This document shows, piece after piece, positions 56,963 through 62,849 of a DNA stretch of 64,000 nucleotides. The stretch is from Halorubrum xinjiangense (lineage in GTDB: Archaea; Halobacteriota; Halobacteria; Halobacteriales; Haloferacaceae). The stretch covers positions 1 to 64,000 of the forward strand of contig NZ_FNBO01000011.1 of assembly GCF_900102375.1 (NCBI RefSeq), written 5' to 3'. The notes under the pieces are model-generated. The model searched no databases. It saw nothing but the letters and a program-made list of their open reading frames with translations, and was not told the origin of the DNA. How positions within the stretch are numbered: the stretch's first letter is position 1; each line of letters begins with the position of its first letter. Position numbers and translations under genes: made by a program.

Positions 56963-57367
56963 TTAGGGCGCTGCCGCGCCGATGTCCCCGTTAGATCTCG
57001 CAAAGGGAATGTCGATTTCGAGGCCGTCGTAGGTCAGTTTCGGTTTCTTCGCGTGACCTGCTCCGCCACCTTCGAACTCGATAACGCCGATATCGTCGAG
57101 TTCAGAGAGGTTTCGGTGAACCTGTTTGTAGTCCCGGTCCACCAGTTCGGCAGCTTCGCGGATACTTTCGGGTTCGTGTTCAGATATTGCCTCTAACAAC
57201 TCCAAGTTCTTCGGACTGAGGAGTCGGCTGAGTTCAGCGTACGAGCCGAAGTTCAGTACCGGCTGGGCGTCGTCGAGATCCTCACCCTCCTGAGCGGCCT
57301 TGATGCGACTGCGCGTGCGCTGATCGAGGCGGTCGCGTTCGCCGACGGTGACTTTGAGTGTGGGCAT
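56963..57367 (-). CDS. wHTH antitoxin (HVO_A0114/TumA-like)
   Basis: A 134-residue winged-helix protein: EHEPESIREAAELVDRDYKQVHRNLSELDDIGVIEFEGGG is the DNA-binding wing with the HVO_A0114 pattern. It starts 23 bases after the DUF6516 toxin gene on the same strand; the pair matches TumE/TumA-type toxin-antitoxin loci, where the HTH protein neutralises and autoregulates. Confidence 0.78.
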   Translation of the reverse strand: MPTLKVTVGERDRLDQRTRSRIKAAQEGEDLDDAQPVLNFGSYAELSRLLSPKNLELLEAISEHEPESIREAAELVDRDYKQVHRNLSELDDIGVIEFEGGGAGHAKKPKLTYDGLEIDIPFARSNGDIGAAAP

Positions 57368-57390
57368 GGTATGTCTCTCCCGGAGGCGTC

Positions 57391-57696
57391 CTACTCTGAC
57401 CAGTCCCACGAAACGGGAGTCATTTCTTCAACGTCACGCTTGAAGCGGTCGTAAAGCGTCAGCATTTCTGGGAACTGAATGATTTCGACATCGTCCCCGA
57501 TGTGGCGCTCGTGACCTTTCCTCCGTTCGTGAGCGTTGTCGTAGCGGAGGATGGTGTCGCCACCGACTTCCCCGAGGTGTAGACCGTAGTCCCACCCGCT
57601 CGGGTACTTCTCATCCTCCGTCTGCCGGATGGTCACACTGACAACGTAGCCATCTTTGACATCCTTCCAATCTTCGATGGTGGTGTAGGACGCCAT
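57391..57696 (-). CDS. TumE-like toxin (DUF6516)
   Basis: A 101-residue protein with the DUF6516 pattern: GDTILRYDNAHERRKGHERHIGDD...FPEMLTLYDRFKRDVEEM. Conserved RYDN and His residues may form the active site. First gene of the pair. The unit lies 84 bases before the first small inverted-repeat element. Confidence 0.75.
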   Translation of the reverse strand: MASYTTIEDWKDVKDGYVVSVTIRQTEDEKYPSGWDYGLHLGEVGGDTILRYDNAHERRKGHERHIGDDVEIIQFPEMLTLYDRFKRDVEEMTPVSWDWSE

Positions 57697-57779: not shown

Positions 57780-58312
57780 GGTTCTGTTGAGCCCTGAAAA
57801 GGTGATCTGTTTTGCTCCGATCTGGTCAATACAGAGGACGCACGGATTGTTTTGTGTAGTTGTTTCACCGACAATTCTTAGTTACGGGATATGTTATTAG
57901 CCCACATGTTCGATCTGTTCGGCGGCGACGATGACCATGATGATCGTGTAGAGTCCCAGGCAGACTTGTTCAGAGATCTCGGCTATTCAGACATTCGAGC
58001 CGATCACACATCAGAATACCCGGACCCAAAGAAACGAAACGGCCGGATCCCCGATGTGACCGCTGATAATCCGTTTGGGCGTGACCCTGTAGTTGAAATC
58101 GATACTGGGAAAGATACCTCAAAAAGAGACCAGCGTCAACTTAATGATCTCTCATCAGGACTTGATCCGAATGAGACTCTAATTCAGGTTGACGAAGATG
58201 ATCGGCTTGTTGACGGCTGGTAAGACCATCTGAATACTCGCGCGATTAGCAGTCTTTAGCCACCGGCTGTTTCACCATATTGTATATCTGAAGAATAGAT
58301 TTCAACAGAGCC
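57780..58312. mobile_element. Small inverted-repeat element 1, with a cargo gene
   Basis: Left end GGTTCTGTTGA...AGGTGATCTG, with a further block AATACAGAGGACG at about 57,827; right end CCGGCTGTTTCA...GAAGAATAGATTTCAACAG, ending AGCC at 58312. The two ends pair as inverted repeats (GGYTCTGTTGA against its complement) and match the ends of the elements at 62,224 and 61,129. The flanks differ (GTTCAGGT left, GCTCACTC right), so no target duplication survives. One small gene lies inside. Confidence 0.65.
57906..58223 (+). CDS. Cargo gene of element 1: 105-residue acidic protein
   Basis: MFDLFGGDDDHDDRVESQAD...PDVTADNPFGRDPVVEIDTGKDTSKRDQRQLNDLSSGLDPNETLIQVDEDDRLVDGW. The VEIDTGKDTSKRDQRQL segment recalls nuclease-like (PD-(D/E)xK, E-x-K) strand patterns, but the match is too weak to name. 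It lies fully inside the inverted-repeat element. Start at 57906 chosen over an upstream ATG 15 bases before. Confidence 0.6.
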   Translation: MFDLFGGDDDHDDRVESQADLFRDLGYSDIRADHTSEYPDPKKRNGRIPDVTADNPFGRDPVVEIDTGKDTSKRDQRQLNDLSSGLDPNETLIQVDEDDRLVDGW

Positions 58313-58445
58313 GCTCACTCATATTGTTGGGTTCCGTGACGAACCGCTGTATATGCCGCGTGGAGCGCGTCGAATAGGGTGGGATCGTGTTATCATCTCC
58401 ACACACTTCGGTGACTCGAAAACACCAGAACTCGGTCAACCCTGG

Positions 58446-58742
58446 TCAGGTATCGTCATCAGACGGTGGTCGTTTTGACAGTCGATCGAACCGATCTTGC
58501 GCTGCCGAGGATCGTTCCGCTGTCTCTTCAGGCTCGTATACTGCTTCCTCAATATCTCCATCACGAAGCGTTACTGTGAGGATTGCGTCGGCGTGCTGCG
58601 CATCTGTAGGAAACTGTGCTGCGTCGATCACAGCGTTCCCAACTTCGTCTCCATCGCGTTCGAAAAACACGGTTGCGTAGCCGTCTTCGACGCTGTCGAT
58701 AACAGCCGTGTACGTGCCGTCAGGTAGCTCAACTGGCGACAT
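58446..58742 (-). CDS. DUF3006-family protein
   Basis: A 98-residue protein: LPDGTYTAVIDSVEDGYATVFFERDGDEVGNAVIDAAQFPTDAQHADAILTVTLRDGDIEEAVYEPEETAER, the DUF3006 pattern (small beta barrel). Its ATG overlaps the stop of the MBL gene (TAATG). DUF3006 genes are known to sit next to ComEC-like MBL hydrolases, as here. Confidence 0.85.
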   Translation of the reverse strand: MSPVELPDGTYTAVIDSVEDGYATVFFERDGDEVGNAVIDAAQFPTDAQHADAILTVTLRDGDIEEAVYEPEETAERSSAAQDRFDRLSKRPPSDDDT

Positions 58743-60160
58743 TAGTATTGCTCCTCCACGACACGCTCACCATCATCTGTTGTGACTATCACTGTATCGC
58801 CATTATTGTTCCATATTGGAGAGCCCGACCCCCAGTACAGTTCGGTTTCCGTATTGGTCCCGCTCCCAGTTCGAAGCGTTAGGGTTGCTTCTGGGCCGAT
58901 CGTGACGTCATCAGGGATCGTGTAGGTGTGCCCAGCGTCATCAGCGACGGTCCATCCGGAGACATCAAGCGGGTCGTCTCCCGTGTTCTCGAAGACGATG
59001 TACTCGTCATTGAGGTTCTCCCGATCATCGCCTTCTGCATCGGCGTTGATTTCTGCGACTGCGAGCGTCACGTTCTCAGTCGACGTCTCGTCATCATCGT
59101 CTTCTGTAGAATCGTCACTCCCGCCCGAATCAATCGCCCCAGTCCCAGCTCCGCCAAGCCGGTCGCGTTCAGTCACTGTGCCGGTCGTCCCTGGTTCGAC
59201 AGCATCCCCATCACGAAGCGCACCGGGGTCTGTCGGGGCAGCCACCTGGGTTTGAACGGAGACTGCGCTCCCGTCGCTCACAAGCACGATGTCACCGTGC
59301 GTCGCGGTCCAATACGTCGGGATCGACCGATCCGACAATCGCTGTAGCACCTCATCGTTCGGGTGCTCGTACTGCGAATCATACGCGCTTGACACCACGA
59401 CTGCTTCCGGCTGTACCGCATCAAGGAACGCTTCACTCGATGAGCTCGCAGAGCCGTGGTGTCCGGCTTTCAGCACCGTGGATTGTAACTGCTCGCCGTA
59501 CCTCTCAACGAGGTATGCTTCCTGGTCGTCTTCGGCATCACCAGACAACAGAAAGCTTGTCTCTCCGTACGTGAGCTTCAACACGATGCTGTTCTCGTTG
59601 CGCCCTTCATTCTCTAGATACGGCTCCGGTGGCCCTAACACATCAACGGTGACCGCACCGAACGCAAGCGAGTCACCTTCTCGTGTCTCGTACAGCGTCA
59701 CATCGTGCTCCTCGATCGCATCAAGGTACTCCCCGTACGTTTGTGTGCTCGCGGCGATCCCGGGATCGTACACCGCACCGACCCCGTCTGCCTCCGTCTC
59801 GTAGTAGTCGATGATCGCTGCGTTCCCACCAATGTGGTCAGCATCGTTGTGTGACGTGACGAGATGGTCGATCCGCGTGATGTCGTGGCGTTGTAGATAG
59901 TCGATGACGTACTCGCCGTCATCGTTGTAGTGTCCGGTATCAACGAGCATCGTCTCCCCATCCGGCTCGATAATGAGCGTGCTCACTGATTGCCCGACAT
60001 TGATATAGTGGACTTCGACGGTCCCGTTTGTCGTCGCTACAGATTCTGTGTTATTCTCTGGTGTGGACTCTCCTGGTGTCGAATCACCAGGGGCCGTACC
60101 CGCACAACCAGCGAGCACGACCATTACCCCGACGACAACCAACAGCACCCCGCGTCTCAT
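58742..60160 (-). CDS. Secreted ComEC-like MBL hydrolase lipoprotein with lamin-tail domain
   Basis: A 472-residue lipoprotein. Signal and lipobox: VVVGVMVVLAGC. MBL fold: INVGQSVSTLIIEPDGETMLVDTGHY, SHNDADHIGG (zinc ligands), FLLSGDAEDD and LKAGHHGS, as in the hydrolase part of ComEC. After a linker, the C-terminal LTD beta sandwich (IVFENTGDDPLDVSGWTVADDAGHTYTIPDDVTIGPEATLTLRTG) probably binds DNA or wall. It could be a surface nuclease feeding on DNA (inference). Confidence 0.88.
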   Translation of the reverse strand: MRRGVLLVVVGVMVVLAGCAGTAPGDSTPGESTPENNTESVATTNGTVEVHYINVGQSVSTLIIEPDGETMLVDTGHYNDDGEYVIDYLQRHDITRIDHLVTSHNDADHIGGNAAIIDYYETEADGVGAVYDPGIAASTQTYGEYLDAIEEHDVTLYETREGDSLAFGAVTVDVLGPPEPYLENEGRNENSIVLKLTYGETSFLLSGDAEDDQEAYLVERYGEQLQSTVLKAGHHGSASSSSEAFLDAVQPEAVVVSSAYDSQYEHPNDEVLQRLSDRSIPTYWTATHGDIVLVSDGSAVSVQTQVAAPTDPGALRDGDAVEPGTTGTVTERDRLGGAGTGAIDSGGSDDSTEDDDDETSTENVTLAVAEINADAEGDDRENLNDEYIVFENTGDDPLDVSGWTVADDAGHTYTIPDDVTIGPEATLTLRTGSGTNTETELYWGSGSPIWNNNGDTVIVTTDDGERVVEEQY

Positions 60161-60240
60161 ACACACCAGTCTGGCGGAAGCGTGTTGAGCGTTCGGATGG
60201 CGTACTCATCGTCGAATCAACCCGCACAGTCTGTGGAGCT

Positions 60241-61086
60241 CTAGTTTCGGTCACCCAGTGCTCTCCTGCCCCAGATGACTCCAAGCGTCACCAGCATCCC
60301 AGTCGTGAATCCTGTGCCATGCGCAACGACGTTCACGAAGCGACGGCTCGCATCGAGTTCAACTTGGAATAGCACAGCAATCAGGGCCACCACGACAACC
60401 CATCCGACACCCACACGCACCCCCGCATCACGACCGTGGGCCCAGGCACGTCGCACCCGTTGAATCAGAGGTCTGTGATGCGCCCCGATTCCGAACAGAA
60501 TTACACTCGTCACCCCAAGGGCGATTCCCGCGATTTCCGGCAGCACATCGGATGTGACCGACAGCACGGTGAGTGACGCAACTGTTACTGTCCCTACCGT
60601 GACCATGCCAGCCGCATACCCGTACCACGCCGTCACTGATCCAAGCAGTACCACGTACAACATCCCACCAAACGCGCTCACCACCCCAGAAAATCCGCTT
60701 GCCGTCGTCACCTCCGCAACGACTTCCCACTGAAGCAGGAGGACCCAGTAATCAACGAGCTTCGTCACTGGCGGCGCAACCACAACGCACCCAGCGGTAG
60801 CGAGCCAAAACGTGCGTCGACGTCCTCGCTTGGCGAGCAGTGCGTATATCGAACCGACCACAACAGCGTACCACGCAACGTTCGACACGAGGTGCGACCA
60901 ACTGTCGTGGACCGCTGCCGCTGTCCATGCTGACACCAGCGACGGCTCCCCATACGTGAACACAAGCTCTGTCCGGAGTGACTCAGGGAACAACAGATGG
61001 ATCGCAACAAGGAGACCACCCACCCCAGCCAGTATCGTCGCCTCTACCGACTGTTTGAGTGTAGATACAGGTGGGACTCCACTCAT
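60241..61086 (-). CDS. Rhomboid-like intramembrane serine protease
   Basis: A 281-residue protein with about seven membrane helices. GFSG (ATTASGFSGVVSAFGG) supplies the catalytic Ser; His in NVVAHGTGFTTGM is the partner in a later helix. HDSWSHLVSNV in an earlier helix is the family's N-terminal motif. Convergent-free neighbour of the MBL lipoprotein. Confidence 0.75.
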   Translation of the reverse strand: MSGVPPVSTLKQSVEATILAGVGGLLVAIHLLFPESLRTELVFTYGEPSLVSAWTAAAVHDSWSHLVSNVAWYAVVVGSIYALLAKRGRRRTFWLATAGCVVVAPPVTKLVDYWVLLLQWEVVAEVTTASGFSGVVSAFGGMLYVVLLGSVTAWYGYAAGMVTVGTVTVASLTVLSVTSDVLPEIAGIALGVTSVILFGIGAHHRPLIQRVRRAWAHGRDAGVRVGVGWVVVVALIAVLFQVELDASRRFVNVVAHGTGFTTGMLVTLGVIWGRRALGDRN

Positions 61087-61346
61087 TGCCGTGGCGTAGC
61101 CGAGTCAGATGGAAAAACATCAAGAAGTGGCTCTGTTGAAATCCTCAACCGGTGATATGTTCTTAGCGTTCTGCTGAATACAGAGCGCAAATCTTGTACG
61201 ATGCTAGCCGTTTGAGACAAGTTGATCCTAGTCAGTGTAGGGAGTATACACCTCAACGGGAGACTGCCTATCGAAAATCCACTAGACACGCTGTGACCGA
61301 TTCAGAGCGTGTGTGTGAAATTTAGCGATGATCCGTCGCTTGTCTG

Positions 61347-62195
61347 TTACAGTAAGTTCTCTATCCTCTGTCTCAGGAGGTTAAAATACGCTTCACGGGC
61401 AGCACTTCCATTGAAATCTCCTAGGTCCTTGATTTTCCCCTGTTCAGCATACGAATTGAGTATCGGCTCTATCAACGCCGACTTCTGAAACTGATTAAAT
61501 CGAACATTCGTATTAGTTGGATGGATAGCTGGGATCAATGTCCAATCCGGTGTCTCAAACTTGTCAAAAAACCCTTCCTCAAGTTTTGGAGCGTTTGATT
61601 TTGGAGGTAACGAGTCAAATCGTGAGAATACTGCCTTGGTTGCTGGACTACCAAGGGTCACAACTATCTTCGGTTTGATCAGTTTCAACTCCTCTGATAG
61701 ATACTCAGTGCAGTGATCTGCTGCTTCGGAATAGTCGCCTTCGTCCGGCAAAAAAGGTTCGTCTAAGTCATCGTATGTCTCGTGACACTTTTTAGCGTTA
61801 GTAAGATAATATTTGTAAGACGGGGAATCACTTGGCTCCTTTAGAGGCGCTTTTTTACCTACTGCTATCTCAAGAAGATGGTCACTGAACATAGCAGAAT
61901 TGTCTCTTGGGAATTCAGATGGACTCCAATCTCTGGTGGCCATTCGTTTCTTAGCCTCTGTTAATGATATCCCTTCTCTATGCCACTCAGTAGGTGGTTT
62001 ATCTGTATTTGTGCCAGGTTCTTTACCAATGAAAACAACATCTGCATCGAGGTTACCTTCCCGGCTTGCAGCAAAAAAGGGGCGACTAAATCCGCCTGTT
62101 GCCCAGTGTGGACAGGTCTTACAGGGCTGTTGACTTTGGTGCCAATTTGACTCTATTTGTTGGAGATACGAGTGTAAGTCTTCACTCATTATCAT
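61347..62195 (-). CDS. Uracil-DNA-glycosylase-superfamily protein
   Basis: A 282-residue protein. UDG-like pattern: CKTCPHWATGG (metal or Fe-S Cys), ADVVFIGKEPGTNTD (motif I-like GxxPG), IVVTLGSPATKAVF and IPAIHPTN (motif III-like HPxN/S). Typical enzymes excise uracil or damaged bases. It is much less acidic and lower in GC than the core, and enclosed by the inverted repeats of element 3. Starts are unclear: ATG 62195 or 62189. The N-terminal codons upstream come from the nested repeat. Confidence 0.65.
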   Translation of the reverse strand: MIMSEDLHSYLQQIESNWHQSQQPCKTCPHWATGGFSRPFFAASREGNLDADVVFIGKEPGTNTDKPPTEWHREGISLTEAKKRMATRDWSPSEFPRDNSAMFSDHLLEIAVGKKAPLKEPSDSPSYKYYLTNAKKCHETYDDLDEPFLPDEGDYSEAADHCTEYLSEELKLIKPKIVVTLGSPATKAVFSRFDSLPPKSNAPKLEEGFFDKFETPDWTLIPAIHPTNTNVRFNQFQKSALIEPILNSYAEQGKIKDLGDFNGSAAREAYFNLLRQRIENLL

Positions 62196-62223
62196 TGGCA
62201 AGTAAGTCAATACAAAAATAAGT

Positions 62224-62598
62224 GGCTCTGTTGAAATCCTCAACAGTTGATATTTTCACAACTCTGATCGCTCAGTACCGGATCTCTATGGATCGATGTG
62301 GTGTACCGCTTCAGGAGACAGGAGTCGGTCGGTGGGCAACGCAACCCACCCGTTCGGGAGAACACGAACCTTGCCTTGGTGAAGCACCTTCTCTTGTTCT
62401 AAATCCCCATACACGGTCGCGTTTTCGTAATCAACTAAGAGTTGATCCGGGAGTTCATCAGGTACGAAGACCATATTTGACGGACCGTTCCTGCGAGCAT
62501 AGTTCTTGTCACAAGCCGAGATACGGTCGCTTTGGGGCTCGCATCAACCGGCTGTTTCATGCGAAAAAATATTTGAAGAATAGGATTTCAACAAAGCC
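62224..62598. mobile_element. Small inverted-repeat element 2, perfect target duplication
   Basis: A 375-bp element. Ends: GGCTCTGTTGAAATCCT (62224-62240) and the complement of GGCTTTGTTGAAATCCT (62582-62598), a 17-bp inverted repeat with one mismatch. The flanks are the identical octamer AAATAAGT at 62216-62223 and 62599-62606. The right inner part (CCGGCTGTTTCA...GAAGAATAG) matches element 1. An open frame inside encodes 62 residues. It is non-autonomous: no transposase. It lies inside element 3 next to the UDG-like gene start. Confidence 0.85.
62286..62474 (-). CDS. Cargo gene of element 2: 62-residue protein
   Basis: MVFVPDELPDQLLVDYENAT...LEQEKVLHQGKVRVLPNGWVALPTDRLLSPEAVHHIDP. It fits a small beta-rich fold with codons typical of a protein. 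No family recognised. It takes up half of the small inverted-repeat element, leaving only about 60-120 bases on each side. Confidence 0.6.
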   Translation of the reverse strand: MVFVPDELPDQLLVDYENATVYGDLEQEKVLHQGKVRVLPNGWVALPTDRLLSPEAVHHIDP

Positions 62599-62849
62599 AA
62601 ATAAGTATTCATCATAGTATACCATTTTAATAAGAAGCAGAATCAGTAAAACCGGTGATGAATACATCCTCTGTATCTCGCACACTGACCCTCTCAGTTC
62701 TTAAGAATTTCAACAGAGCCAAAGAAGTCTGTCAGGCCCGGCTATCTGAATTCTATCCTCCGTAGGATACCACCGGCACGATCTTGGGGGTTATGGTACA
62801 GACTCGTGAGAACTGTTCAGTCCTGTCTCACGCGAGGTCGTATACGAGG

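Follow-up and report, generated by a model that had tools for sequence, protein, structure and literature searches.

Transposase-free gene cassettes with IS5-type ends in Halorubrum xinjiangense, probably akin to mobile insertion cassettes

The window analysed here, a 64,000-bp stretch (contig C11, positions 1-64,000) of a 3.26-Mb genome whose relatives and end matches are haloarchaeal, contains gene-carrying elements that are very probably non-autonomous transposable gene cassettes working like mobile insertion cassettes (MICs). This reading draws on what sequence comparison establishes: shared ends and modules, target duplications, an empty site, units that have moved, nesting, exchange of ends and an IS5-family partner. 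A cassette consists of one short gene or gene pair flanked on either side by an end module of ~65-70 bp, whose outermost ~16 bp match the terminal inverted repeat of an IS5-family element of haloarchaea, a relative of ISHxa2/ISHla2. Making no transposase of its own, it would depend on the transposase of an autonomous element in the same genome, which would recognise the two ends and insert the cassette as a unit elsewhere, duplicating 8 bp of the target.

Gene-carrying elements in the window

The end motif occurs seven times in the window with at most one mismatch, versus 1.08 copies expected from shuffles. Six ends lie where an initial annotation of this DNA had placed them, five being exact and one carrying one mismatch, and the spaces between them are free of transposase genes, as that annotation stated. 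It had described three elements, each enclosing a different gene; the ends and the genes stand, but the pairing had to be revised, since the element at 62224-62598 is nested within the one at 61129-62720. The ends at 61129 and 62720 thus bound an outer element of 1592 bp, those at 62224 and 62598 bound an inner element of 375 bp, and the outer element consequently encloses a UDG-like gene plus the inner element. Each window element is bracketed by two IS-type inverted repeats, and the inner sequence blocks reported to be shared among the ends are real, belonging to the ~65-70-bp end modules that are conserved across unrelated cargos.

The outer element (61129-62720, minus strand) has an L module at ~61129-61199 and a B module at ~62650-62720, and measures 1209 bp when the inner element and the target copy created by its insertion are subtracted. 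It is flanked by CAAGAAGT on the left (61121-61128) and by AAAGAAGT on the right (62721-62728), which match at 7/8 positions. Two relatives of the same genus (G089 and G102) have the uninterrupted sequence ...ATCAAGAAGTCTGTCAG... at this place, with a single target copy CAAGAAGT and no cargo. The site is therefore empty in these relatives; cargo standing in place without ends, which would have told against a mobile element, was not what they showed for the outer element. Its gene (61347-62195, minus strand) encodes a 282-aa protein of the uracil-DNA-glycosylase superfamily (Pfam UDG, E = 1.5e-12) that has no other match at E<=1e-15 among 170 genomes of the family. The protein was also considered as a known defence protein, an idea dropped for want of a PADLOC match.

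The inner element (62224-62598, minus strand) carries an A module at its right end and an unclassified module at the other. Its target copies at 62216-62223 and 62599-62606 both read AAATAAGT (8/8), which confirms the perfect 8-bp duplication reported previously; the left copy occupies the positions 21-28 bp upstream of the start used for the UDG-like ORF (62195). The enclosed gene (62286-62474, minus strand) encodes a 62-aa protein with no Pfam match. The same 375-bp element is present in three other genomes (G081, G112 and G106) with identical boundaries, 96-98% identity and unrelated flanks; a 7/8 duplication surrounds one of these three copies, and none surrounds the other two.

The third element, E1 (57780-58312, plus strand), combines an Lp-type left module (~57780-57854) and an A-type right module (~58240-58312) with one gene (57909-58223, plus strand) for an acidic protein of 104/105 aa, which has no match in Pfam, NCBIfam or PADLOC. 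The PDV...EIDTGK pattern of this protein had raised the possibility of a PD-(D/E)XK-type nuclease, an idea abandoned because the AlphaFold model was unusable (mean pLDDT 44.6). Matching ends and an enclosed gene are thus present in E1 as had been described, but its flanks, GTTCAGGT and GCTCACTC, lack the target duplication of a MIC, so it is not claimed as a complete one. Its left end has diverged. Homologues of its protein, 76-90% identical, are encoded in four other genomes with no cassette-end pair around them, and in the closest of these the nucleotide similarity spans the stretch that the modules enclose (E1 positions 76-451). At the E1 site of G089 and G110 the left end is kept, and the inner sequence and predicted genes are different. 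The left end of E1 is therefore resident at this site, bordering other sequence there in these two relatives, and E1 may be a chimera formed around it.

The content of the E1 site varies among relatives (L229 in G089, L215/L228 in G110 and L230 in G102), resembling a local spot of turnover. E1 is adjoined by genes for a TumE-like toxin and its HVO_A0114-domain partner (56963-57409 and 57391-57696), and a TumE-like/HVO_A0114-type pair also occurs within a cassette elsewhere in this genome (C5:21137-22491, target 7/8). Between the two element sites lie genes for a metallo-beta-lactamase/lamin-tail protein (58742-60166) and a weakly rhomboid-like membrane protein (60241-61086).

The IS5-family partner and the end modules

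An autonomous element with the same ends, which the initial annotation had proposed to look for, was found in the same genome. Of the two types suggested (IS1595/ISH4- or IS5/ISH1-like), it is the IS5 type and not the other. The element is 1319 bp long and is present in three identical copies at the ends of contigs C4, C8 and C11. Its 273-aa transposase matches the IS5 model NF033579 (E = 8.6e-66, 222 bits vs a cut-off of 140) as well as DDE_Tnp_1, and is 96% identical to an ISHxa2-family and 94% identical to an ISHla2-family transposase annotated on haloarchaeal plasmids. A predicted passenger of 125 aa lies antisense, downstream of the transposase. The sequence AAATAGAG is found on the left flank on C21 and on the right flank on C8, representing an 8-bp duplication whose two copies an assembly break has separated; 8-bp duplications flank other autonomous copies as well, and ISH1 itself is described as generating an 8-bp duplication (PMC10264941). 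These matches suggest that the cassettes are mobilised in trans by the transposase of the IS5 partner.

Two other candidates for the partner were set aside. The IS6 family was considered because of the type of its ends, and the genome has three weak DDE_Tnp_IS240 matches, but the end-bearing element is IS5. A second IS5-type transposase clade (~46% identical) has different ends, GGCTCTGGTGAATCGC, and compact copies of ~0.93 kb; its copies L275, L276, L277 and L279 leave no room for a passenger.

A single layout recurs at 30 transposase loci in the family: a T end near the transposase start, the transposase, passenger ORFs and a distal end. The passenger ORFs usually differ from locus to locus, and the distal ends comprise 14 A, 2 L, 0 Lp and 0 B, the rest being unclassified or not found. 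One genome, that of the halophilic archaeon SHRA6 (G001), has many duplication-flanked cassettes and transposases of the partner type only as fragments; its cassettes may have been left with no means of moving, or a different enzyme may act on them.

Despite the unrelated cargos, conservation of each end extends beyond the ~16-bp repeat to ~65-70 bp, dropping to background further inward. Four module types (A, Lp, L and B) were distinguished, and A and L are also the distal ends of transposase-bearing copies. In a set of 57 cassettes, 21 pair A with Lp and 20 pair L with B (41/57 together), versus 11.3 on average and never more than 22 in 10,000 shuffles of the ends; in the window, E1 is of the Lp/A and the outer element of the L/B type, and the inner element has A and an unclassified end. 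The orientation of the cargo relative to the modules is random (B to L 11, L to B 9, Lp to A 11 and A to Lp 8), so the idea of a fixed gene orientation was discarded. A conserved hairpin in the end modules had also been suspected, from a GTGC...GCAC pattern; it is unsupported by alifold, which gave no conserved fold in the 37-base subterminal segments of B, A and Lp and a negligible one in L.

In autonomous copies the order is thus end T, transposase, passenger and a distal end that is often A and sometimes L. Most cassettes retain the A or L end and have Lp or B at the other. The cargo would change ends by homologous recombination or gene conversion at a subterminal block. In two cassettes, each found with the same cargo at unrelated sites, the copies differ in the outer ~45 bp of one end and are nearly identical inward from the ATACAG block, from which we infer that ends were swapped by recombination at this conserved block. 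In another genus, locus L210 holds a UDG-family gene (28% identical to that of the window) between the same ends, with a 7/8 duplication and transposase remnants, and this is what the step from an autonomous IS with a passenger to a cassette would look like.

Cassettes in other haloarchaea and the rival explanations

A search of 99 genomes of the family found the ends in 84, with a reversed-pattern control of nearly zero. For inward-facing end pairs from this genome and its relatives, the flanking 8-mers differ at no more than 2/8 positions in 35 of 63 cases, versus about 1.5% in a mismatched-pair control, and a second set of end pairs yielded 29 perfect 8-bp duplications. The 78 duplication-supported elements fall into 65 clusters. 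A non-redundant set of transposase-less elements of at least 290 bp, to which E1 was added, comprises about 57 cassettes from several haloarchaeal genera. They enclose different genes, as the initial annotation had anticipated for a search with the same ends. The genome sample behind this survey is not random, all cassettes but E1 were selected for their 8-bp duplications, and a few pairs could be due to chance (~1.5% of those tested).

Pfam matches among the cassette cargos include gene pairs (TumE with HVO_A0114, HicA with a DUF7387 partner, and PIN with a MazE-like protein), histidine kinases, AstE/AspA, GNAT, BrkB/YihY, a Rce1-like protease, an AsnC-type regulator with HalOD1, a luciferase-like monooxygenase, an alpha/beta hydrolase, an SBF transporter, a globin, a pentapeptide-repeat protein and UDG. 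Small membrane proteins are also found, and many other cargo proteins fall into no Pfam family. One candidate defence match, PDC-S31, was obtained (L094). An ORF of at least 60 aa is present in 55 cassettes and the median coding fraction is 0.70, which distinguishes them from MITEs, defined as short and non-coding. True MITEs do exist alongside: L100, L102 and L103 are gene-free elements of 124-125 bp that share these ends and are flanked by perfect 8-bp duplications. Two further cassettes of this genome carry an 86-aa gene with the perfect duplication ACAGAAAA (L044, C16:55931-56367) and an aspartoacylase-like gene with a 7/8 duplication (L043, C16:34668-35712). Two genera have a histidine-kinase cassette at unrelated sites, the copies sharing 95.7% identity over 1.87 kb, and a cassette of another genome (L204) contains two nested cassettes. 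In the IMG/VR virus collection, a search with one left-end pattern gave no match.

The elements might instead be decayed copies of a passenger-carrying IS that lost their transposase in place, the gene-only form never moving. Autonomous copies do bear passenger genes, L210 combines a UDG-family gene with transposase remnants, and E1 and some other copies lack duplications, all of which this account would accommodate. It is nevertheless improbable: gene-only elements have perfect duplications, one and the same gene-only unit stands at unrelated sites, and the inner element sits inside another gene-only element. Moreover, no transposase-bearing copy was seen with Lp or B, the second end of the cassettes. 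What would tell against in-place decay, a gene-only unit at several sites with perfect duplications and no transposase remnant, has largely been seen.

An integron-like or other site-specific cassette system, with a recombinase acting on the end modules, would explain why many different cargo genes stand on standard end modules and why ends are exchanged at a conserved subterminal block. Such a system is very improbable in view of the 8-bp duplications at varied, unrelated targets, the random orientation of the cargo, the lack of a conserved folded structure in the subterminal segments and the ends held in common with an IS5 element. It is scarcely credible that the ends are short repeats arising by chance or composition, or that they belong solely to intact IS copies, the genes being ordinary residents; the core motif is short and some ends are unpartnered, but the shuffle and reversed-pattern controls, the duplication statistics and the conservation of the modules contradict this, and the duplications and the empty site refute it. 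Non-autonomous cassettes moved by an IS5-family transposase are thus the preferred reading.

Relation to known elements and significance

To our knowledge, MICs have been described for a few IS families of bacteria, with only a handful of different cargos. The initial premise that small non-autonomous elements usually carry no genes overlooks these bacterial elements. Like MIC231 and the qnrS2/qnrD mic elements (PMC3913671, PMC2266710, PMC3129680), the haloarchaeal cassettes have two IS inverted repeats around a cargo, no transposase, target duplications and a cognate IS with the same ends. For MIC231 of Bacillus cereus, the cognate IS231A can act in trans (PMC3913671), and a 2008 review knew of no other IS family with the modular arrangement of passengers found in IS231 (PMC2266710). 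The cassettes described here differ from known MICs in IS family (IS5 with 8-bp duplications vs the IS4-family IS231), in domain (Archaea), in cargo diversity (dozens of types) and in their non-randomly paired modules of ~65-70 bp; they are also found nested. No report of archaeal MICs was found in the open-access literature, and the claim of novelty is limited to it.

With transporter IS (PMC3129680) the autonomous partner shares a predicted passenger beside the transposase, but no transposase is encoded in the window elements, one end of which is unlike those of autonomous copies. The haloarchaeal MITEs of Haloquadratum (PMC3119063) and ISH2 (PMC10264941) likewise are transposase-free with IS-matching ends, and are described as mobilised in trans (PMC3119063), ISH2 by the ISH8 transposase (PMC10264941); in the parts of these two papers that were consulted, however, they are described as too short for a transposase, and no cargo genes are reported. 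The comparison with gene cassettes made in the initial annotation is apt for the cargo diversity and for interchangeable single-gene units on standard ends, but not for the mechanism, given the random orientation of the cargo to the modules. Unlike integron gene cassettes, these elements transpose with target duplication at varied sites and have no fixed gene orientation and no attC-like folding in the segments tested.

More tentatively, and with more doubt than conviction, haloarchaea may have in common a standing pool of transposable cassettes that hold single genes on one of two chassis (A/Lp and L/B). New cargo would enter, and ends would be swapped, by recombination at the subterminal block, amounting to open-ended gene capture by one IS5-type transposase. 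If true, this would be a gene-capture system functionally analogous to integrons and mechanistically unrelated to them.

In summary, an archaeal IS5-type element appears to support dozens of different single-gene cassettes, with toxin-antitoxin pairs, sensors and a transporter among the cargos. The end modules, the empty site, the remnant-bearing cassette and the exchange of ends at one block make gene capture testable, and the cassettes offer a concrete means by which haloarchaeal genes can turn over.
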